Source: a virus
DNA: 23,399 bases
Virus record (IMG/VR): IMGVR_UViG_3300038428_000171
Coordinates: 1-23,399 of that record
Direction: 5' to 3' (one strand)
Each line of letters begins with the position of its first letter. The first letter of the stretch is position 1. The notes beneath the pieces are model-generated. The model had not been told where the DNA came from, made no database searches, and saw only the letters and a list, made by a program, of their open reading frames with translations. Positions 1-23,386 of this stretch are shown piece by piece. A program made the translations under genes and the position numbers.

Positions 1-1140
1 GTCTGTCCAGATAACTCCTCCCAATGTTGCCGGCGCCCCGCTACTTGACACAATTGGTGCATAATCCAAATTAAAGATATTTATGATCGGAGGTATTGCC
101 TCTCTTATTGACATCTGAATAGAGGTAACTGAAACTGTTGAACTATCGACAACTATACCTAAGTTTTTATATTGATAGGAGATGGAAAGAGAAACTATCT
201 GTGTCAACGAAAAGTTAGGATCAGAAAGAACTTGATCGTTGAGTCTAATCTGATTAGTTGCCAGATTAGCATAAGAACTTGCATAATTTTGATCATAGCG
301 CGAACTTGTTATCTGATATCCATAAGTCTCTATATCATAGGTATAAATACCTGTTGTCAGAACAAAGGTTAAGCTTTCCAATATTGTTATTGGTGATTGT
401 GTCACATTAAGAGTTAAATCATTGATATTAAAATAACCGATAGCATCAATAGAGTTAGGTGTTAATGTTTCTTGCCAATCTTCTTGTTGCAATGTTATTG
501 GAAAACTTGGAAAATCAACTATTGAATATGATGCTGATGCGGTTGTTCCTGTTTTTGTCAAAGCAACACGGGTAATCTCATAAGCACTCTCTTGATTCAA
601 TCTATCATAAGGACCTGCTGCTCGTGTTTTCTGCTCATCGATGACATTAAAAGAAAGATAGTTTTCATTTTTACATTGACCAATATCATACAATGCACGA
701 GCGAGAACATCTGATAATGCATTTATATATGAGGAAACAATAGTTTCACTATTCTCAATATTATAGATGTTATCCTTAAAATATGAAAGAAAATAGTTTT
801 TGACAGGATTAGCAGGGTCTAATGGACCTATAATCGTATAAACATTTGATACGCCATCCTGAGACAATCTTGATGTTCCATTTAATGACATAAATGGGTT
901 TGTTTTTGTTGAAATAAATATTAAATTATACGATCCATTAGGAGATAACGGAAGGCAGGTTATATTTAATGTTGCGCCGGAGACTAAAACTTGTGTCACT
1001 TGTGCGTTAGGAACATTGATAGAAGTAGATACAATAGAAACATTAGATGGAACTATATAAGGCGTCAAATTATCAGTAAACGTGATACTGATACTCGTGC
1101 TACTATTGACAACTGTATTGATAATTCTTAGTATAGCCAT
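1..1140 (-). CDS. Baseplate wedge or tail-associated protein, 5' part (runs off left edge)
   Basis: Translating 1140 down to 1 on the minus strand gives 380 codons without a stop, so this is the N-terminal part of a larger protein. The ATG overlaps the stop of the upstream J-like gene as TAATG, which indicates translational coupling; a weak GAG lies 8 nt upstream. Residues 1-80 alternate beta strands in the style of an Ig-like/SbsA-type domain (ITFTDNL, LNITCLPLSPNGSYNL). Residues 120-165 look helical (SSYINALSDVLARALYDIGQ), followed by NENYLSF and more beta-rich sequence. In P2-like clusters the gene after J is I, and in T4 gp6 is followed by gp7, so position suggests a wedge protein or a connector to receptor-binding fibres. 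That role is inference from position: I do not recognise the family. The end, and any fibre or receptor-binding domain, lie outside the window. Confidence 0.85.
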   Translation of the reverse strand, partial: MAILRIINTVVNSSTSISITFTDNLTPYIVPSNVSIVSTSINVPNAQVTQVLVSGATLNITCLPLSPNGSYNLIFISTKTNPFMSLNGTSRLSQDGVSNVYTIIGPLDPANPVKNYFLSYFKDNIYNIENSETIVSSYINALSDVLARALYDIGQCKNENYLSFNVIDEQKTRAAGPYDRLNQESAYEITRVALTKTGTTASASYSIVDFPSFPITLQQEDWQETLTPNSIDAIGYFNINDLTLNVTQSPITILESLTFVLTTGIYTYDIETYGYQITSSRYDQNYASSYANLATNQIRLNDQVLSDPNFSLTQIVSLSISYQYKNLGIVVDSSTVSVTSIQMSIREAIPPIINIFNLDYAPIVSSSGAPATLGGVIWTD

Positions 1141-4100
1141 TAGAGGTTCTCAGTATTCAAAACAATATTATTGGCGACGAGATATTGATTATTGGCAGCC
1201 TGAATGCTTATTACTGTTCCAGATGTTCCTGTCACATTAAAGTAAAGAACTCTTGCTCTATCTATTCCTGTGACCGATTGAGCGACATTTATCAATGTAA
1301 CCGTCGATACATTTTGTCCTAGCTTTGTCGTCGTCATCGCCGTTATTAATTGGTTTCTTAATGTTTGCAGTGCGGTCGCAGCTGTCGACGTTAATAAATA
1401 TGTGCTATCAATGACAACATTCATTGTTAAATCGATAAGAACTTCTTGTGCTTCATAAGCAAGAACATCAGCATTTATTGGACGACTCGCTTCAATTGCA
1501 AAAGTTGCATTTGTTATTATCTGATTGTAATTATACGTTATCATAATTCTTTCATTGGGCTGCGGAGCTAAATAGTTATAGAAAGCACGATATCTCGATC
1601 CTAAGTTAGGTTGTGTAAATGTTGCAATTGTTAATCTTGTCGATTGTGATGATTTAAATCCACTTCCTGCATATATCTTATTTATTAATGCAAACTTCTT
1701 ATTGGTAAATAATGTTCCATTTTTTGTATATGAAAGCGTCTCTAAATCATTATCTACCGTATAATAAAAGCTTATGTTAATCTTATCGCCTCTCACCGGA
1801 GCGTTATTTGTATTATTTGTCGTCGATGGAAGTTGTATATATGTTCCAGCAAAACTTGGATTGGAAAGCAACTCATTTGGATAATATAAATTGTTAAAAA
1901 CAACGCTTTCTTTCACATCGTATGTCGCTGTTGTTTCGAGAATAGTATTATCTGTCGAACTATATGTGATTACTTTCTCTGCCAACATAACTCGAACAAC
2001 TTTTATAGAGTTTATTGAATAAGAAACGGAAAGAGATGATAGAGCTGTCTCAATAGCTTCTGTCACATCCTGTCCTAATCCTGATGTAGTCGCCGTGAAG
2101 ACAACATTATCTGCCTTATATAATGTAGTTCCAAAAATACTCAAAACGCCTGGATTAATTATTTGATCGACGGTCGTCGCTGATAATCTTGTTGCAGCTC
2201 GGCGCAATGTGTTAAAATTGTAAAAGATGACATAGACACTATCACCAGTAACCGCAGAAACACCACTCTGCAATAATAATTGATTACCACTTATAGCCCC
2301 ACTATAATTCCACACTTCTTGTCCATCGAGAATACGGAGGACACATATTTGATCTACCGTTATATTTGTCAATATTTGAGATATGGTGATAATATTGCCA
2401 TTAATTGCTGTTATATCATATAATCCATTATCGAAGACGGATGCAAATCCTGTCACTCTTACTTTGTAATTAAGTATTCCTGGAAGAGAACTAAATAATG
2501 ATGAGCTCGTCAATGTTGCATATCCATCATATGCTGTTAGAACTCCATCTGTCCCTGAAAGCAAAGAAATATCTGTATTCGGTATTAAAACGGAAAAATT
2601 AACATTTGTTTTTGAGGTATATTTATTTATCGCCAATGATAATCTTCCCGTCGCCGGATCTGTTCCCAATGTATCAATCCTTGATGAAAGAACATAATTG
2701 GAATAACTAAACGGTTGAAACCTTATTAAATCTGTTGCGTAGTAAATTATGAGAACTCTATTCCCTATTGCAGGAGTATTTACTCCATTGAATATTATTT
2801 GATAATTACCATCATTACCAACTTGAATAGTTCCAATATTATCAGAGTTCCATAATTCCTTAAAATCTGAAAGTCTTATTATGGATAGAACTTGATTTGC
2901 TGATAATGAATAATCAGTCGCTGAAAGATTTAATTCAATGTATAGTTGAGAAGAACTATTATTCTGAATTATCTGAAACTCTCTTCTTGATATATTAGCT
3001 TGACTAATATTATTAAACCCATTATTATTGCTCAATATAAAACCATTGCTTATTCGAGAAATTGGTAATGATGTTGTCGCTAATGAACATAGATTTGGAA
3101 CATTAGCAATATAATTAACCTTCAATATGATGTTATTCATCGCTAAACTATTTGGGTTGATTGATGAAGCAGGTATTGTTATTTGTGTCCCATTGAAACT
3201 GCCTATATTGCCAGTTATATTAAATGTATCTACCCCATTAAGATAGACAGAAACATTTTGATTAAGCATTGCCGTAGTATCAGTCGGCAAAATTATTAAG
3301 ACACCATAATAAAGAGTTATACCAACAATAGAGTTGCTTACTATGAATGATCCATTATTTTGAGCTGTCGCATAAAGTTCAGCATTATTATTCTTCAATA
3401 GAACACTATCAACCGTCGAAACTGTTGCCGTCAGATTATTCAAGATCACACACAATCTTCCTGTATTCACACCAGAAGTAATAACGGAGACAATGCCATT
3501 AACTTCTGTAAACATCTTTGCTGTAAGAACCGTGCTAATCGGATGAGAAACTGTTCCAGTGAAAAAATTAGATGAGCTATTGTAGCTAAAATTAGTCTTT
3601 TCTATAATCTCGGAAGCATAACCCCAATCTATACTATTTGTTACAGGTCTTGGATTATTTGTTCCCTCTAATCCATCATAATCAGAATATTGATCATAAT
3701 TGATTATCCAGGTATAATCAACTTGCAACTGACCATTTGTTGAAGGTAATGTATTCCCAGAGATCTGTATTCTTCCAGTAGTATTATATGTTCCTGTATT
3801 ATCAACATTTTGATTAACGACAACATATCTCTCTCCGGTATTCACATTGTAGACCCGAGTAACATTTGTCGCCGGTGTATGCAATAACTGAATTATTGAT
3901 CTATCCGAGGTAACCGTACTATTCTCATTTGTTATTGAGATATTTTGTTGAACATTAGGAATAGCGAGAAGTCCTGTATATGTTACCGCGTCCTGTCCAT
4001 TAAACTGCCCCTTGACCCTATCATCGGGAAATAATGATATTTGATTGGATATCCAGGCAAATGTATCAAATCCCCACGGACTACCTCCATAAACCCCAGT

Positions 4101-5201
4101 ATCATTAATCAATTTATAGTTTCCGAAAACTCTTCCATATTTATCAATACTCTCCGAAACAAAATTAGATCCGCTTACCGATCCAGAGACCGTTAAAATA
4201 GCATCAATCGGTTGCGTCGGTAACTGACCATTAGCTATATCATCTATTCTTTTTCTATTTATCGTCTTATTAAGATCCGCAGCAATCTGTCCGAGAACAA
4301 CATTATTTTTAGAAGATGTTGGGTCATTATTATTGCTTTGATCAACATAGATATAAGAGTCAGTATTTGATTGAAGATTGCTTCCCATAATGATAATATT
4401 GACCTTGCCACCAGTTCCTTCTGAGATGACGACACCATTTTTGACTATCGATCCATCTCTCACCATTAATGGATCGCCAGGTTGGACGACATATGCATCT
4501 TGAACTCCGGTCACTCCTAACGCTGTATTCAAATAACCCAATGCTGTTCCGACACTTGATCCACTAAAAGTTGATAGTATTCTATTCCTAAATGTTGTAT
4601 CGCTTTCTTGATCTGTTCCTCCTGTAAATGGAGAGACATTTGTCACATTAGATATACTTGCGGTGCTTACTGTCAATAAAGAGTAAATGCCTATATTTCC
4701 ACTCGACCCAGCTGAATTAGCTCGTAAGGTTACTTGAACAGCATATTGGTCTGTTATACCTGCGGTTGCTAATTGTGCAGAAAACTTACTTGCAATAGAC
4801 TTGTAAAGATTAATATTTGCCGGAGTTACAGAGACACCATTGATAACAGAAAAAGTTATTCCATTATTAGCTGTTGCCGTATCACCTGGATTAATATTTA
4901 TCGTTGCCGTTATCGTTGAGAATGTATATAATGCGGTTCCACTACTCGTCGTAGCATTCTTTCGAACTAATCCATAATTCATTGCTAGCTTATCTAAATC
5001 AGATCCTGAAACCAAACGAAGGCTCTGCTTATTAGATATTCCACCTAATTCATCGTATAATATAGATATTTGAGACGCCGGCGCTTCTATTATTAGATCA
5101 CGACTCACCGTGCCGGCTTTTGTATCTAAATTAGGTTGAGCCAACTTAAGAAAATCAACTAAACCTTGTATGATATCATTAGCATTTCTTATAGTAACCA
5201 T
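1140..5201 (-). CDS. Baseplate J-like (T4 gp6-like) wedge protein, greatly enlarged
   Basis: This 1353-residue protein carries Baseplate_J signatures. The N-terminus has the helical start (IIQGLVDFLKLAQPNLD, then SRDLIIEAPASQI), then beta strands, then GGTDQESDTTFRNRIL at residues 194-209, the hallmark loop of the family. The C-terminal part (about 1238-1320, beginning ASRPINADVLAYEA) matches the usual family ending. Family members link hub to sheath and form the iris-like wedge ring that drives contraction; ordinary ones are roughly 300-500 residues. Here residues about 350-1230 are an insertion of beta-rich Asn/Ser/Thr-rich sequence with a recurring module (about 442-503, 770-824, 951-998 and 1189-1227). 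The ATG follows the gp25-like stop by 2 nt with only a weak SD (GTGAG), so translation is probably coupled. The next gene overlaps its stop. Family call confident; function of the insert unknown. Confidence 0.92.
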   Translation of the reverse strand: MVTIRNANDIIQGLVDFLKLAQPNLDTKAGTVSRDLIIEAPASQISILYDELGGISNKQSLRLVSGSDLDKLAMNYGLVRKNATTSSGTALYTFSTITATININPGDTATANNGITFSVINGVSVTPANINLYKSIASKFSAQLATAGITDQYAVQVTLRANSAGSSGNIGIYSLLTVSTASISNVTNVSPFTGGTDQESDTTFRNRILSTFSGSSVGTALGYLNTALGVTGVQDAYVVQPGDPLMVRDGSIVKNGVVISEGTGGKVNIIIMGSNLQSNTDSYIYVDQSNNNDPTSSKNNVVLGQIAADLNKTINRKRIDDIANGQLPTQPIDAILTVSGSVSGSNFVSESIDKYGRVFGNYKLINDTGVYGGSPWGFDTFAWISNQISLFPDDRVKGQFNGQDAVTYTGLLAIPNVQQNISITNENSTVTSDRSIIQLLHTPATNVTRVYNVNTGERYVVVNQNVDNTGTYNTTGRIQISGNTLPSTNGQLQVDYTWIINYDQYSDYDGLEGTNNPRPVTNSIDWGYASEIIEKTNFSYNSSSNFFTGTVSHPISTVLTAKMFTEVNGIVSVITSGVNTGRLCVILNNLTATVSTVDSVLLKNNNAELYATAQNNGSFIVSNSIVGITLYYGVLIILPTDTTAMLNQNVSVYLNGVDTFNITGNIGSFNGTQITIPASSINPNSLAMNNIILKVNYIANVPNLCSLATTSLPISRISNGFILSNNNGFNNISQANISRREFQIIQNNSSSQLYIELNLSATDYSLSANQVLSIIRLSDFKELWNSDNIGTIQVGNDGNYQIIFNGVNTPAIGNRVLIIYYATDLIRFQPFSYSNYVLSSRIDTLGTDPATGRLSLAINKYTSKTNVNFSVLIPNTDISLLSGTDGVLTAYDGYATLTSSSLFSSLPGILNYKVRVTGFASVFDNGLYDITAINGNIITISQILTNITVDQICVLRILDGQEVWNYSGAISGNQLLLQSGVSAVTGDSVYVIFYNFNTLRRAATRLSATTVDQIINPGVLSIFGTTLYKADNVVFTATTSGLGQDVTEAIETALSSLSVSYSINSIKVVRVMLAEKVITYSSTDNTILETTATYDVKESVVFNNLYYPNELLSNPSFAGTYIQLPSTTNNTNNAPVRGDKINISFYYTVDNDLETLSYTKNGTLFTNKKFALINKIYAGSGFKSSQSTRLTIATFTQPNLGSRYRAFYNYLAPQPNERIMITYNYNQIITNATFAIEASRPINADVLAYEAQEVLIDLTMNVVIDSTYLLTSTAATALQTLRNQLITAMTTTKLGQNVSTVTLINVAQSVTGIDRARVLYFNVTGTSGTVISIQAANNQYLVANNIVLNTENL

Positions 5202-9544: not shown

Positions 9545-10870
9545 TTATTTTATCTCCAAATCTTTCTTAATTTTCTTCCATTCACTTTCCCAAATTGAAA
9601 TTATTCTATATCCAGCTGATTTTATTTTTTCTTCTTTTTCAAGTGTATTTTGATATAACTCTCCAAAAGAACAATCTGTATTTTGATTTATATCATTTGG
9701 ATCATACATATCTGGATTACCATGATAATAATCACCATTATATTCATATACTATATTTTTTTCTGGATCGTATCCATCAAAATAATATGTTTTTCCATCT
9801 ATTTTAACAGAATATTGTTTCAATATATTTATATTATTTTGATAATTTAACCATTCAATTTCACCATTTGATATTTTATGGCAGCATGTCGGACATCCAT
9901 ATCCTCTTAAATGATTAAATGGTATTTGAGGAAAATATCCATGTTTTTTACATTTTATTTCTATTGGTGTCCTATTATTCACATATTCAATCTTATCATA
10001 TTCATATAATCCATTATGAACTTTATTCGCAGCAATCTTAAAACTATCATTATCATATGGTTTACATCCAGAGCATTCTGGACAGCCATGACCATTTCTA
10101 TGATGCATTGGATTTTGCCAAAACTCACCATGACTTGAACATATAATACAAATATCTTCTTTACTATTTATATATATAGTATTACTATAATCAAACCTAT
10201 CTCCATGTGCTAACTTTGCTTCATCCAAATAATCTTCTAATGTTTTTACTCTGCTCTCAAAAAAACATTTTCTACATCCAGAACCTCGTAAATGATTTCT
10301 AACTATTTGATAAAACTCTCCATGTTTTGGGCAAATTATTAACATTTCACTTCTTACGCCATTAATTTCTGCATAAGGATATATATAATAATTATTATGA
10401 ATATCATTTGATCTCTTAACAACACTTTCATAATCTACTCTTTTGTACCCTGAACATTCTTGACACCCCTGACCAGCCAAATGATCCCTTGGTACTATAT
10501 CAAAATCTGCATGTTCTCTACAAATTAGAGTAACCTTTTTATGATTATTTTTATACTCAACTTTATCATAAATATATTCATCTCCATGAATTGCTTTTGA
10601 TTCTAATATAAAATTATCTCTTCCTTTTGATTGTGATTTTGATGAGTTTTCATGAACACATAGCTTACATTGACCTGATCTATTTATATGATTGAATGGT
10701 TTTTGCCAAAAATTATTATGTATTGGACATGTTATTTCCACTGGTTCCCACATATCAATATATTTAACTAAATCATATGTGTAAAATCCATTATGGACAA
10801 TTTTGCCTTTCAATACAAACTCGCCTAATCCATCTTCTTTTTGCAATCTATTACTATTTTTTCTACCCAT
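9545..10870 (-). CDS. Free-standing homing-endonuclease-like protein: five zinc-finger-like repeats plus Vsr-like nuclease domain
   Basis: This 441-residue protein has five repeats of about 63-69 residues. Each has the layout C-x2-H, a second His ten residues later, then C-x2-C: C48/H51/H61/C68/C71, C117/H120/H130/C136/C139, C180/H183/H193/C199/C202, C244/H247/H257/C263/C266 and C307/H310/H320/C326/C329, with the recurring phrase CP-x-HG-x-F. This resembles the DUF723-type repeats of phage mobile nucleases. The C-terminus (337-441) has D365, D368 and E376-Y-N-G-D380-YYHG, followed by a YRIISIWESEW ending, as in Vsr/PD-(D/E)xK-like homing endonucleases. It is intact and has its own AAGGAG eight nt before the ATG. 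Its base composition is lower in G+C than its neighbours, which fits acquisition. It is not expected to be structural; it probably spreads by cutting phage genomes lacking it. Confidence 0.88.
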   Translation of the reverse strand: MGRKNSNRLQKEDGLGEFVLKGKIVHNGFYTYDLVKYIDMWEPVEITCPIHNNFWQKPFNHINRSGQCKLCVHENSSKSQSKGRDNFILESKAIHGDEYIYDKVEYKNNHKKVTLICREHADFDIVPRDHLAGQGCQECSGYKRVDYESVVKRSNDIHNNYYIYPYAEINGVRSEMLIICPKHGEFYQIVRNHLRGSGCRKCFFESRVKTLEDYLDEAKLAHGDRFDYSNTIYINSKEDICIICSSHGEFWQNPMHHRNGHGCPECSGCKPYDNDSFKIAANKVHNGLYEYDKIEYVNNRTPIEIKCKKHGYFPQIPFNHLRGYGCPTCCHKISNGEIEWLNYQNNINILKQYSVKIDGKTYYFDGYDPEKNIVYEYNGDYYHGNPDMYDPNDINQNTDCSFGELYQNTLEKEEKIKSAGYRIISIWESEWKKIKKDLEIK

Positions 10871-18499: not shown

Positions 18500-19354
18500 T
18501 CAAAAAGAAGTATCGACCTGACCATTAAATGAATGTTGTGAATAAGGACCGCTTGGATTCTTTGGAGAAACTTGCCAGGGGAAAATATTAGTTCGATAAC
18601 CGCGACGCTGAGTCACCTTAAATGTCATATCATATTCAAGAAGAAAATTAGTCGCACTTTCATGAACCTCCATACTCTCAAAAAAGCCACGGTAGACTAA
18701 TCCTGAATAATACATTTCGACAGTAAACGCCAACTGTGCCAAAGAGTCAATATTACTCATTGCTAAATTGCTATTCGGGCTATCCATTCCTAATATTCCG
18801 CCAATAGCTCCTCCGGCGACCGCACCAACTATTCCGCCTATGCTTCCAATACCTCCTAATGAAGCCCCTACGCTGGACAATGTATTCGAGAGATCAGTGC
18901 TCGCATTATTAGCTGCTAATGTTAATCCAACGGCGTCAAAAGCATATTGTTCAGCTCTATATATTTCGTAAAGAACATTTATTCCCTCAAAACCGGCTGA
19001 TCCTGTATTTCCACTTATACGAAGCGTGTCCAGCTCTTCCCCCCAATACTGCAATGTATATCCACCTTTTGTTCTTTCTTGTGTAATCAGTTTTTTATGT
19101 AAATATATTATTTTTTGCGGGTTGACATACATTGAGACAATGCCAAATTGAGGAACAAACCAAGTGATAATATTTCTTTTTAACTGTCCAGGGTTATTTT
19201 CTGGAACATTGGAATATGGCAAACCATTGCCATTTGCTTCATATGTCGGAGGAACGTTAAAACCTTGCCCTTGTGTCGCTGTGCCATTAACGTTGAGCGC
19301 ATTTTGGACTGTATTTATTCCACTGATTAAGTTAGCTATTCCAGAGTTTGCCAT
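18500..19354 (-). CDS. Tube-initiator / baseplate hub-cap protein (CIS-tube / XkdP / gp53-gp48-like)
   Basis: The 284-residue protein follows the tape measure, where tube-initiator proteins normally lie. Its N-terminal strands contain MYVNPQKIIYLHKKLITQ at 75-92, then TKGGYTLQYWGEELDTLRIS at 95-114, the pattern of contractile-injection-system tube/initiator proteins (an NPQ-x-I strand followed by a strand ending in W/F-G). A second half at 207-250 pairs AFTVEMYYSGLVYRGFFESM with FLLEYDMTFKVTQRRGYRTN. Between them, 157-190 is a Gly-rich hydrophobic stretch (GGIVGAVAGGAIGGILGM) resembling a glycine zipper. No C-terminal LysM is visible, unlike XkdP. It would sit on the hub and nucleate tube polymerisation. 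The SD is AAAGGA seven nt before ATG. The exact family name is uncertain. Confidence 0.75.
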   Translation of the reverse strand: MANSGIANLISGINTVQNALNVNGTATQGQGFNVPPTYEANGNGLPYSNVPENNPGQLKRNIITWFVPQFGIVSMYVNPQKIIYLHKKLITQERTKGGYTLQYWGEELDTLRISGNTGSAGFEGINVLYEIYRAEQYAFDAVGLTLAANNASTDLSNTLSSVGASLGGIGSIGGIVGAVAGGAIGGILGMDSPNSNLAMSNIDSLAQLAFTVEMYYSGLVYRGFFESMEVHESATNFLLEYDMTFKVTQRRGYRTNIFPWQVSPKNPSGPYSQHSFNGQVDTSF

Positions 19355-19365
19355 TTTGTGTTCCT

Positions 19366-21516
19366 TTAATAGCTCCTATTTGCGACAGAGATTGCTGTCG
19401 ATTGAGAGTTTGTTTCAATCTCTCTCTTACATTTTAGACAATATCCCGTAACATTAACATTTATCTCGCCCGGCTTTGATGTATGTGCATGAGCTGGTGC
19501 TACTCCTGCTTCTGCTTTTGCATTTTTTTCATCCATAGCTTTTCTTATCTCTTCTGGCGTATGTCCAACCATACTCGCCGATGTTCTCGGTGGATTACGA
19601 GCTATGTTTCTTTTCGCTTCTTCTGATAATGATCTTCTTTGTTCAGTTTCTGATATACCGCCAGAACTACCATACATTGACTGCAACATTTCTACATAAG
19701 CCTTTGTGCTTATTGAGGAAACATGATGAACTAATCTATCCATTTGAGCTTTCGCACCAGCTGTATCAGAAATTGCATGACCTTTTAATTGAGTTCCATA
19801 AATATTAGCATTTTCTCCGCCAACATTTGCTGCTGCACCATATTCTGCACGACGCATAGTTTTATATTCATCCATCTCTTTTGCATACATACCGCCAACT
19901 TGTGTCGACTTAGCTAAATCTTCTCTTGTCATTGGTCGCGCTGACATTAATCTACTCACCGTATCAAAATTAGTTATATTAGCTTCAACTCTTAATCCAT
20001 TAAGTTTACTCCTTAGATTAGATATATCTGTCTTCGATAAGTTTTCTCTTGCAGTTCCTCTTCCTGTAATATCGCCCAAAATATCTTTACTTAACTCTTT
20101 TCCTGTTGCTCTTCCAGCTTGCATTTCTCCAAAACCAGCAATTATTTTATGTGCCTCTGTTTCATTTTTACCAATACCAAACATTTGCAAAATCTTTGTC
20201 TGTCTCTCTAATTGACGGGCGGCGGCTTCACTCTTACTCGCCTCTTCTACGGTTACAAAATGCCCGCCACCAGCAGACTTCTGAACCTGCTTCATTATCA
20301 TATCCATTGCTTCTTTTGTCTTTCCTTGGTTTAACATATTCTCAAAAGCAAATCCTCCACGAAGCCCGCCAGGTCCACCTGCTTGCGACATTAAAAATGA
20401 TTTTTGTGCTATTGTAAGATCCTTAATCGAAGAAGTCATTTTTGTTGCCGACATAACCGCTTGATCTGCGCTCAATCCAGCCTTTTTAAGTCCTTCGGAA
20501 TAATCATTAACAATTTGGACAACGCCCTCTAAATTATTTTTTCCGTCAACGCCTAACATAACAAAATCATTTGATAATTCTGTCAATGCACCTCTTATTG
20601 TATCAAAGGAGCCGCCTAAATGACTATTCAATTCTGTCATTCTTGCAGTATATTTTGCGGCGCCTTCTAACCCAACATTATAGTTCTTAATTGTGTTTCC
20701 AATATCTTTTGCTGTTACATCAAAATATCTTCCGGCTCCTGTTGCTAATTTTGTGACCGCTGTGACCGAATTAAATGTATCCGTTCCAGCTTTTACTGTA
20801 TCGTTAAGAACCCTTGGTATTTTGCCAAGCTCAACATAGTATCGCTGTATAGTTTCTATTGGTAAATGTGTCGCTGCCGCTGTATCCTCCCAAGCTTGCC
20901 CTTGTTTTTTTAACATTGGACCTAGATTTTCTAAATTAGCGCCAGCTGATGCATATGTATCAGCTAAACTGCCAGTGCTTCCTGCTAATTGAAAAAGAAC
21001 ATTAGAATATCGCAATCCAACATCTGCCGATTCTGCTGTTATCATAGCAAGAGATGTTAATGCACCTGTTCCCTTTTTAACAGCATCAGATATTTTATCT
21101 AATGGAACACCCATTCCAGATAGAGTCTTTACTAATCCATCAGTAGCCGTCTTCATAGCATTTGATACCAATGATCCGCCATTCATAAGATCACTTATAT
21201 TTTTAATCGGCTCACTAAAAGTTAATAATGATTTAGTATCTATACCGCCCAAATCTTTAAGAGCATTACCAAACCCAAGAATGCCAACAGTAGCTAATCC
21301 AAAAGCAGCCCCACCTTTTTCTAGCTGCCCTCTCAGCCCTTGAAAAATGCCAGAGACAACATTTGAGGCTACACCAAGAGAAGTCATAGAATCTCTTAAT
21401 GTATTCGATGCTTCAAATGCATTCGTTGCATTCGCCGCATACTTACCCACATTTTCAATAGCTTCATTAGTTATTGAATCAATAGTTCCTTGTGTCGGTG
21501 GTGTCGGCGAAGCCAT
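19366..21516 (-). CDS. Tail tape measure protein
   Basis: This 716-residue, largely helical Ala/Gly/Thr/Lys-rich protein lies directly after the frameshifted chaperone, the diagnostic place for a tape measure. Residues 36-86 form a helical region ending in a hydrophobic stretch (AAFGLATVGILGFGNAL). Residues 145-400 are long amphipathic helices. A Gly-rich break occurs at 380-389 (GGPGGLRGGF), with further charged helices to about 660. The C-terminus holds C693-L-K-C696, a CxxC pair. At about 1.5 angstrom per residue, the usual rule of thumb, the tail would be near 107 nm, comparable with T4. The protein would extend inside the tube and be released during DNA ejection. GAGG lies four nt before ATG, ten nt after the chaperone stop. 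Antisense ORFs at 20106-20417 and 19581-19808 are shadows. Confidence 0.88.
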   Translation of the reverse strand: MASPTPPTQGTIDSITNEAIENVGKYAANATNAFEASNTLRDSMTSLGVASNVVSGIFQGLRGQLEKGGAAFGLATVGILGFGNALKDLGGIDTKSLLTFSEPIKNISDLMNGGSLVSNAMKTATDGLVKTLSGMGVPLDKISDAVKKGTGALTSLAMITAESADVGLRYSNVLFQLAGSTGSLADTYASAGANLENLGPMLKKQGQAWEDTAAATHLPIETIQRYYVELGKIPRVLNDTVKAGTDTFNSVTAVTKLATGAGRYFDVTAKDIGNTIKNYNVGLEGAAKYTARMTELNSHLGGSFDTIRGALTELSNDFVMLGVDGKNNLEGVVQIVNDYSEGLKKAGLSADQAVMSATKMTSSIKDLTIAQKSFLMSQAGGPGGLRGGFAFENMLNQGKTKEAMDMIMKQVQKSAGGGHFVTVEEASKSEAAARQLERQTKILQMFGIGKNETEAHKIIAGFGEMQAGRATGKELSKDILGDITGRGTARENLSKTDISNLRSKLNGLRVEANITNFDTVSRLMSARPMTREDLAKSTQVGGMYAKEMDEYKTMRRAEYGAAANVGGENANIYGTQLKGHAISDTAGAKAQMDRLVHHVSSISTKAYVEMLQSMYGSSGGISETEQRRSLSEEAKRNIARNPPRTSASMVGHTPEEIRKAMDEKNAKAEAGVAPAHAHTSKPGEINVNVTGYCLKCKREIETNSQSTAISVANRSY

Positions 21517-21526
21517 AATACCTCAG

Positions 21527-21895
21527 CTAAATTATTTTTCGTCTTCTTCTTTGTCTATCTATTCCTTTTCCTTCTTCTATTTCTCCTAATTTTAACTTTC
21601 CTTCATTTATGTCTCGAACCATTCTTGTCGACTCTTCGAACTCCTCATCAGTTGATATATGCATATCCGCACCTTCTCCCTTAATCTTGCGAACCGCTTC
21701 GGGATTCCAGAATGATGCTAACAAATATGCATGCTCCTTTGCTAGCTCAACTTTCTCATTCTGATCCGCTACCCAGTTATTGTATTTCCACATATATCGA
21801 ACCGGATCCATATCTCTTATTATAGGATCGTCCTGCTCGCATCCATACATATTGCATAAATGCCAAACAAAACGATGATCAGGCTCGTTAACTAT
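21527..21895 (-). CDS. C-terminal extension of tail assembly chaperone, reached by -1 frameshift
   Basis: This reading frame is open from the slippery site (first shifted codon ATA at 21893-21895) to TAG at 21527. The first internal ATG (21848-21850) has no Shine-Dalgarno sequence, and 15 in-frame codons precede it up to the slip site. The expected product is therefore a fusion of the upstream 239 residues plus 122 more (361 aa, spanning 21527-22611), the equivalent of lambda gpGT. Residues are charged and aromatic-rich (DPVRYMWKYNNWVADQ, then HAYLLASFWNP), ending in a very basic tail (RQRRRRK). Extensions of this kind bind the tape measure, whose gene follows ten nt later. If initiation does occur at 21850, the product would be 107 residues. 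Confidence 0.85.
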   Translation of the reverse strand: MVNEPDHRFVWHLCNMYGCEQDDPIIRDMDPVRYMWKYNNWVADQNEKVELAKEHAYLLASFWNPEAVRKIKGEGADMHISTDEEFEESTRMVRDINEGKLKLGEIEEGKGIDRQRRRRKII

Positions 21896-22611
21896 TTTTT
21901 TAGGTCTTCTATAACCTCCTTCATTTCAGCCTCATTTTTAATAGCATATTTCTCCGAAGAACCTTCTCTCATTTTAATATACTCATCATATAATCTATTG
22001 AAAACAACCTGATCAATCTCGCCAAGAAACTCTAATCTCGCATCTAATTCATCAGTCCCTAAAAACTGCGCAGTATCGACACCAGCAATAGATATTATCG
22101 CCCGAGCAAGAACATTTCTCTTCATCTCAAAATCTTGTTCGAGAACATTATCAAGTGGCAATGCCTCACATAACGCCTCATTAAATGCTTTTGCGGAAAG
22201 TATTTGAAGAACAAAAATATTACCACCAATATCAACATTTCTCTGCACTCTCGTCATACCAAGCAACATCTCTATTCTTTTCTTCGCATTCTCTGAAAGC
22301 CGCTCTTTACCCGTTAACTTGGCTTTCTTTGCCTCTCTCGCTGCTTTAAAATCTTCTTCAACCTGTCGCGGATCCTCTTGATCTATCTTCGATTGTAAAT
22401 CCTGTATCGATTGATTAATCTGTGGCATATTCATAGTTCGACGAAACGCAGGATTGACGCTCTGCGTAGGGTCAAATCCCTTAGGATCATTAAAATCTTC
22501 AATAGGTTGCTGAACAGTTTGCGACTGTGCTGCTCCATCAGGGATGACTAATTGCTTCATTGGTTGAACCTTAAATGTTTTCTTGCCGAGCGGTGAATCA
22601 AATTGTGCCAT
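21892..22611 (-). CDS. Tail assembly chaperone (gpG-like, short form)
   Basis: The short form is 239 residues from the ATG at 22611. An upstream in-frame ATG at 22659 would add 16 residues but has no SD and overlaps a promoter-like element, whereas 22611 has AAAGGA 11 nt upstream and the natural-looking start MAQFDSPLG. Residues 1-60 are Pro/Gln-rich and probably disordered. Residues 60-105 form a charged helix (PRQVEEDFKAAREAKKAKL), and 110-235 a helical domain (MLLGMTRVQRNVDIGG, then ARAIISIAGVDTAQFLG, then a C-terminal helix ending EVIEDLKK). Tail tube upstream, tape measure downstream and the frameshift at its last codons define it as the chaperone that keeps the tape measure soluble and recruits tube subunits. 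It is not expected in the mature virion. Confidence 0.85.
   Translation of the reverse strand: MAQFDSPLGKKTFKVQPMKQLVIPDGAAQSQTVQQPIEDFNDPKGFDPTQSVNPAFRRTMNMPQINQSIQDLQSKIDQEDPRQVEEDFKAAREAKKAKLTGKERLSENAKKRIEMLLGMTRVQRNVDIGGNIFVLQILSAKAFNEALCEALPLDNVLEQDFEMKRNVLARAIISIAGVDTAQFLGTDELDARLEFLGEIDQVVFNRLYDEYIKMREGSSEKYAIKNEAEMKEVIEDLKK
21895..21921 (-). promoter_or_regulatory. Programmed -1 ribosomal frameshift site with SD stimulator
   Basis: In the transcript the short-form gene ends CTA AAA AAA TAG, so the heptamer A_AAA_AAA (21895-21901) is in the correct phase for tandem -1 slippage and is followed at once by the stop. A perfect AAGGAGGT (21914-21921) lies 12 nt upstream, as in the dnaX-type arrangement where an internal SD stimulates slippage; no start codon is placed to use it. 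Only a weak 5-bp hairpin (21871-21889) is seen downstream. The run of seven A could also permit transcriptional slippage. Confidence 0.85.
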
Positions 22612-22647
22612 GTTTTTATTTGTCCTTTCAATACGATTGACTATACC

Positions 22648-22677
22648 TTTATATATCATGTTATTAGGCTATTGCAA
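22648..22677 (-). promoter_or_regulatory. Possible promoter for the chaperone-tape measure-baseplate operon
   Basis: Immediately after the terminator the minus strand has TTGCAA (22672-22677), 18 nt, then TATAAA (22648-22653), resembling sigma70 -35 and -10 elements (4/6 and 5/6 matches). A start about seven nt later would give a leader of roughly 30 nt before the ATG at 22611. In an AT-rich genome such matches occur by chance, so this is tentative. A TGATATATA string shared with two other spacers overlaps the -10. Confidence 0.35.
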
Positions 22678-22682
22678 AAAGA

Positions 22683-22713
22683 AAAAGAGGCGTCAAGGAG
22701 AAAACGCCTCTTT
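22683..22713 (-). terminator. Rho-independent terminator after the tail tube gene
   Basis: A perfect 10-bp stem (22684-22693 paired with 22704-22713, GC-rich core) with a 10-nt loop is followed on the minus strand by a run of T broken by a single C. It begins about 25 nt after the tube gene's stop codon. It would end most transcripts after the highly expressed tube gene and reduce read-through into the low-copy assembly and baseplate genes. Confidence 0.85.
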
Positions 22714-22738: not shown

Positions 22739-23386
22739 TTAGAAAATATTGCCTGTTGATCCGAGATCGATAAGACCTGATGCTGTCATGCTACCTCTAT
22801 ACCCATTTGCCCCACTATCCACGGTTTGTTCAATTTGCATGCCCGGAGCAGCGCTATACTTAATCGCCCTATTGCCTTCAACACCGCCTTGTGCAACCGG
22901 ACCATTATTCATAATACTATATATGAACTCAGCCTCCCAATCCATTGTATCTGTTATCAACCAATCACTTGCTCTATATGCATGACTTAATTTCATAATC
23001 CATATGTTTTTAATTATAGTCGATATCTGAGTTGCTTTATCTGATGTCTGCTTATCTAATATAACCAAATCAAATGGGTATACTTGAGCGCTTGCATGCA
23101 AAAAGCCGCGAGAAAAGGCTTGCGTCACTGTCAATCTATCATATCTTATTCTTTGACATGACCCTGTAATATTAGTTGATGCAGTGGGGCAAGAATCCAC
23201 GTGTCCATCAGTGCCCACTTCATCTATCATTTTTATTGTTCTCGTTTCATTAATACTAAGCTCCTGAACAGCACCAACTGCCGTATTATTAACTAGCATA
23301 ATGATGTTTGTAGATAAAGAGACACTTGTTCTATTTGTGCCATTTGGAAAAGTTAGTGTTGAGTTTGTATTTGGAGCCACAGCCAT
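22739..23386 (-). CDS. Tail tube protein-like (gp19-type inner tube subunit)
   Basis: The 215-residue protein is the normal size for a tail tube subunit and lies upstream of the chaperone and tape measure, as expected. Strands around 27-53 (IIMLVNNTAVGAVQELSINE) are followed by IDEVGTDGHVD at 54-64. A central segment carries the phrases RIRYDRLTVTQAFSRGF and YPFDLVILDK, and a long strand/helix pair (IIKNIWIMKLSHAYRASDWL) is followed by DMW-type acidic aromatic residues and EAEFIYS. This is the strand-helix-strand arrangement of tube proteins. GAGG six nt before ATG is a good SD, in line with high expression. A strong terminator follows, isolating it from the next genes. The tail sheath gene would normally lie just upstream, outside the window. 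I judge the family by layout and general pattern, not by an exact match. Confidence 0.72.
   Translation of the reverse strand: MAVAPNTNSTLTFPNGTNRTSVSLSTNIIMLVNNTAVGAVQELSINETRTIKMIDEVGTDGHVDSCPTASTNITGSCQRIRYDRLTVTQAFSRGFLHASAQVYPFDLVILDKQTSDKATQISTIIKNIWIMKLSHAYRASDWLITDTMDWEAEFIYSIMNNGPVAQGGVEGNRAIKYSAAPGMQIEQTVDSGANGYRGSMTASGLIDLGSTGNIF

Follow-up and report, generated by a model that had tools for sequence, protein, structure and literature searches.

An A7 slippery site with a conserved internal Shine-Dalgarno element and RNA stem as a probable −1 frameshift signal in tail chaperone genes of large phages

A 23.4-kb fragment of an IMG/VR virus (the whole stretch analyzed, hereafter the window) carries a tail module in which a programmed −1 shift on a run of seven A's, aided by an internal Shine-Dalgarno (SD) element and a downstream RNA stem, very probably yields two tail chaperones from one mRNA. 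In the large uncultured phage family to which the site belongs, selection acts on all three dnaX-like parts of the signal across 80 distinct sequences. Frameshifting by −1 in tail chaperones is textbook knowledge and is usually described by the slippery heptamer alone. To our knowledge, the three-part signal of A-rich heptamer, SD and stem has so far been known from bacterial dnaX and transposons. A literature search turned up no tail-chaperone site described as having both a conserved SD and a conserved stem and, as far as we found, a family-wide signal made of A7, SD and RNA stem is undescribed for tail chaperones. The available portion of an E. coli survey (PMC4066793) describes some clusters from IS elements and prophages as having SDs and hairpins but does not specify which. 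The natural series of sites, with and without the SD and with varied stems, offers a test bed for the influence of SD pairing and RNA structure on the ratio of two viral products. Annotators, for their part, can join two ORFs that are otherwise listed apart in jumbo phage genomes.

Layout and identity of the chaperone genes

The zero-frame ORF, orf1 (21892..22611, minus strand), encodes a 239-aa protein, the G-like part of the putative chaperone pair, and ends at a TAG (21894-21892). Its mechanical start is an in-frame ATG at 22659; relatives, however, align from MAQFDSP at 22611 and do not support the upstream codon, and ATG 22611 was therefore taken as the start. The zero frame ends GAC CTA AAA AAA TAG. 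The initial annotation had placed A_AAA_AAA in phase with TAG directly after it, a perfect SD 12 nt further 5′, and a −1 frame open for another 122 codons, and reading of the minus strand bore this out. The heptamer occupies 21895..21901 (read 21901-21895), the stop codon (21892..21894) is directly 3′ of it, and the SD element, AAGGAGGT, lies at 21914..21921 (read 21921-21914), leaving 12 nt between SD and heptamer. Read from the heptamer, the −1-frame extension orf2 (21527..21901, minus strand), the T-like part, runs to a stop at 21529-21527 and has 124 codons, two of which are the shared Lys codons and 122 of which are new. With ATG 22611 as the start, the orf1-orf2 fusion would be 361 aa long.

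Several lines of evidence point to a tail chaperone identity, as the initial annotation had supposed: homology to phage G, structure matches, weak PHROG matches and gene order. In hmmsearch, the orf1 profile matched Bacillus phage G gp181 (5e-13) and the orf2 profile matched the gp182 extension (2e-9); gp181/gp182 (NC_023719) is annotated as a joined, frameshifted tail assembly chaperone CDS. A Foldseek search with the predicted orf1 structure retrieved gp181 (7e-7) and the chaperone of Rhodococcus phage Finch (2e-5), and the predicted orf2 structure matched gp182 (prob 1.00, E 6e-3). Against the PDB, orf1 gave weak matches only, the best being YqbN (3klu, E 0.18). Single-protein PHROG and Pfam scans of the window's orf1 and orf2 alone gave no match; relatives match PHROG families weakly, tail assembly chaperones among them, and orf2 also gives unrelated names. 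We infer that orf1 and orf2 serve as tail assembly chaperones.

The upstream neighbor (22739..23386, minus strand) is a tail tube-like protein, homologous to phage G gp180 and gp179 (9e-17 for gp180). The downstream neighbor (19366..21516, minus strand) is a 716-aa probable tape measure protein, so named from its position and length; it has no family match, and its profile matched no phage G protein. A homologue of the tube protein lies upstream in 78 representatives and one of the probable tape measure lies downstream in 70, the first downstream ORF being 698-995 aa long across relatives. These tape measure candidates come from phages whose genomes reach 480 kb, and that of phage G has ~2,900 aa; if the assignment is right, these are very large phages with short tails. 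The module also holds baseplate genes, including those for a sheath initiator-like protein and a Baseplate_J protein. The latter (1140-5201, minus strand) has ~1,000 further residues without a family match, and its nearest cultured match is in phage G. Amid the baseplate genes lies a 441-aa protein with repeated Cys-containing motifs (9545-10870, minus strand), which looks like the product of an inserted endonuclease-type gene.

Conservation of the slippery site

We collected 112 related loci from IMG/VR, 80 of them with <90% identity and many in phages of 350-480 kb. The initial search, which used peptide patterns within orf2 only and left the junction out, returned 36 loci, all with AAAAAAA in phase (36/36). 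Later searches used orf1 and orf2 alignments and patterns touching KKI or DLKK, which favour recovery of the junction; in the enlarged set, 112/112 loci had an in-phase run of exactly seven A's and an open −1 frame, and, because these later patterns touched the junction, 36/36 is the cleaner figure. Counted from the first A, the zero-frame stop lies at +7 in 73/80 loci and at +10 in 7/80. The −1-frame protein is kept from the heptamer onward (KKIxxEPxHRF), 5′ of any start codon. An alignment of relatives, proposed in the initial annotation as a check, thus showed conservation of both the heptamer and the SD position, and none of the 112 loci had one continuous frame or lacked the heptamer, either of which would have refuted the proposal by the initial annotation's own criterion. 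Relatives were also searched for in bacterial genomes, where none was found, and INPHARED phages contained no close relatives of the window's own proteins.

The window and two further assemblies (L002 and L003) have identical sequence. In a diverged fourth assembly (L004) the site is kept, and the orf2 protein is identical to the window's despite DNA changes. Aligned with L004:1-1075, window positions 21300-22700 form a mosaic: the middle of orf1 is clearly diverged, near identity sets in ~100 nt ahead of the junction and holds across orf2, and the N terminus of the tape measure is diverged. To judge from this alignment, the mosaic suggests recombination whose endpoints lie close to the chaperone.

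Selection on the SD element and the outer stem, and alternative readings

An SD with an anti-SD energy of −6 kcal/mol or lower was present in 74/80 loci. Exactly 13 nt separate GGAGG from the heptamer in 47/80, and GAGG is found at the same spacing in 13 more; the spacing across loci is 12-13 nt, and that known for −1 stimulators is 9-14 nt (PMC5009743). Within the final 400 nt of orf1 there is no second SD peak, and the SD of the window (−12.9) is stronger than any gene start tested there (best, −9.3). Synonymous shuffles that use the gene's own codon usage gave a mean anti-SD energy of −4.8 kcal/mol, compared with −10.5 kcal/mol for the natural loci, a value reached by 0/200 shuffled sets; such shuffles take account of the protein sequence and of codon usage, but not fully of shared ancestry. 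Codon choice at the site was equally distinct. Glu is encoded by GAG in 66/70 cases, compared with 608/1906 (32%) elsewhere in orf1, and Lys by AAG in 41/56, compared with 339/1067 (32%). The residue of the first SD codon varies (K, Q, E, A, R), with 19 changes on the tree; the SD state changed 6 times. Since both anti-SD energy and GAG use exceed the expectation from synonymous shuffles or from the rest of orf1, the SD is kept beyond what the protein needs. We conclude that the SD element is under codon-level selection.

In the window, the sequence after the heptamer folds with unusual stability (z −3.2, or −5.0 when upstream sequence is included). The 5′ arm of an outer stem, CGAGCC.GATC (21877..21887, minus strand), begins 7 nt after the heptamer, and its 3′ arm, GATC.GGTTCG, lies at 21798..21808 (minus strand). 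A long inner hairpin of 13 + 10 bp is predicted at 21827..21876 (minus strand); its sequence is not conserved, and relatives fold the interior differently. Folded one at a time, the relatives have in common an outer stem in which GAACCGG pairs with CCGGTTC ~75 nt on, around a variable interior. RNAalifold reported no consensus structure for the aligned downstream region, and the outer stem, named after inspection of the single folds, was therefore tested by means of named pairs, slides, synonymous shuffles and the tree. The named pairs were paired in 77-82% of cases, compared with at most 54% when the partner was slid, and 9 cells were changed on both sides of the stem, compared with 1.6 in shuffled sets. 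A strong outer stem was found in 61/80 loci and in 2.8% of synonymous shuffles, and the folding energy was −27.2, compared with −19.7 for the shuffles. Pro codons in the stem arms are CCG in 41/46 cases, and in 25/326 elsewhere. On the tree, compensated changes occurred five times at the closing pair and twice at one inner pair. Strong stems begin 5-8 nt after the heptamer in 60 loci and 13 nt after it in one. The window's own outer stem has one mismatch and is joined to the strong inner hairpin; by the ungapped test it does not count as strong (P 0.1). One relative (L034:1389-1500) has another 9-bp stem, TGACCAAAG / CTTTGGTCA, at about the same location in place of GAACCGG / CCGGTTC. An Rfam scan of 21500-22000 gave no match, and SD strength and stem strength showed no trade-off (Spearman near 0). 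The outer stem, too, is under codon-level selection.

With 6/80 loci lacking a strong SD and 19/80 lacking a strong stem, neither element is strictly required. The heptamer is invariant in the same loci, and neither lambda nor P2 has a strong SD (−2.5 and −4.0), as would be expected if a true −1 frameshift took place on A7 with the SD and stem of little weight and the GAG/AAG and CCG codons had some other cause. This reading is improbable: codon choice at the sites departs from that in the rest of the same genes and does so in register with the heptamer, and an origin unrelated to the shift does not fit with the lack of any second SD peak near the end of orf1.

Toward the 3′ end of a gene, an SD often belongs to the gene that follows, and an IS element is known in which initiation and frameshifting share one SD (PMC5009743). 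The SD could thus serve re-initiation, with orf2 translated separately from a start codon close to the stop of orf1. However, 78/80 loci have their first ATG, GTG or TTG of the −1 frame at least 33 nt past the heptamer (mostly 42-93 nt), and the other two have it 9 nt past the heptamer; these positions are far from the SD. In 43/80 loci the −1 frame opens just 3-6 nt before the heptamer. Re-initiation would need no exact A7, nor would it account for an orf2 protein conserved 5′ of any start. Because no start codon is positioned to use the SD, we regard re-initiation as very unlikely. Just as little credence attaches to transcriptional slippage, in which RNA polymerase would insert one A into the run: A-runs do cause slippage, and one additional A would join the frames, but runs that support it are longer (>7 A's, and 9 in bacterial examples; PMC3711429, PMC5009743) than the run here, which never departs from seven, and slippage would leave phase, SD spacing and codon choice unexplained. 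Homopolymers are prone to sequencing and assembly error, but an error or a pseudogene is ruled out by the agreement of all 112 loci, which come from many metagenomes and encode strongly diverged proteins.

Proposed mechanism and comparison with known systems

The SD-stimulated −1 frameshift put forward in the initial annotation is supported by the conservation of the heptamer, its phase, the stop, the SD position and the choice of SD codons over 80 loci. We infer that slippage takes place and that the SD and the stem stimulate it. In this contractile-tailed phage family, many members of which are jumbo phages, one mRNA would give two tail assembly chaperones. Most ribosomes would terminate at the TAG or TAA that follows A7, yielding the short, G-like chaperone. 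In a fraction of ribosomes, tRNA-Lys would move back by one base on the A-run and pair again, and this −1 slip would give the GT-like fusion. The rate of slippage would be raised by pairing of the SD, 12-13 nt upstream, with the anti-SD of the elongating ribosome's 16S rRNA, and also by the GAACCGG/CCGGTTC-closed structure ~7 nt downstream, which would stall the ribosome. The C-terminal part of the fusion probably bridges the chaperone-coated tape measure and the tube subunits, as in lambda GT. In a published E. coli test, an A_AAA_AAA cassette gave 10% frameshifting and tail-chaperone cassettes gave 6-7% (PMC3711429). It is possible, and we suggest it tentatively, that these phages need a fusion share far above that of lambda, tens of percent, as in dnaX, rather than a few percent, and that SD pairing and the long-range stem became fixed to reach it. 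If so, the chaperone ratio would hinge on pairing of the elongating ribosome's anti-SD with the mRNA.

The closest known system is gp181/gp182 of phage G, the nearest cultured relative, which infects B. megaterium; both halves are homologous, gene order is the same, and the −1 shift is on an A-rich heptamer with TAG directly after it. It differs in its heptamer (A_AAA_AAC), in a weak SD-like AAAGGA (−5.3) and in a longer extension, and no GAACCGG stem was seen there. At 19245-19400 of the phage G locus (L169), AAAGGA lies 12 nt before A_AAA_AAC and inverted repeats follow downstream, e.g., AAAGCCATTG / CAATGGCTTT; since these elements flank its site, phage G may likewise rely on an SD, albeit a weaker one, and on a different stem. 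Lambda gpG/gpGT and P2 E/E+E′ likewise have one gene before the tape measure that gives a short chaperone and a −1 fusion, but their slippery sites are G_GGA_AAG and T_TTT_TTG, no strong SD precedes them, and we found no sequence similarity to their chaperones. Lambda, P2 and phage G are the tail-chaperone baselines used here for the SD. The chaperone of the SPO1-like phage SBSphiC (Herelleviridae; L088, 3350-3520) has a weakly homologous orf2 (8e-5) and an orf1 C terminus that looks similar, but its two frames would require a +1 (or −2) shift and it has no A7 site. As the pair is apparently homologous, the direction of the shift may have changed in the chaperone lineage.

Outside tail genes, the SD is used in dnaX and in an estimated 56% of IS elements (PMC5009743). 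IS911 and the IS3 family resemble our sites in combining an SD, an A-rich heptamer and a branched downstream structure (in IS911, a three-way junction; PMC5009743), and in making the fusion as the longer product; they differ in that the genes encode transposases and that the IS911 SD also serves initiation. E. coli dnaX likewise has an A-rich heptamer, an SD ~10 nt upstream and a stem downstream (PMC5009743, PMC3711429), but its heptamer is A_AAA_AAG, its stem is a simple 11-bp hairpin rather than a long-range stem, and the gene is unrelated. The dnaX-type features found in the phage loci are the in-phase heptamer (112/112), the SD at 12-13 nt and a nearby downstream stem (61/80). The initial annotation had not mentioned the stem, and with it the resemblance to dnaX is more complete.
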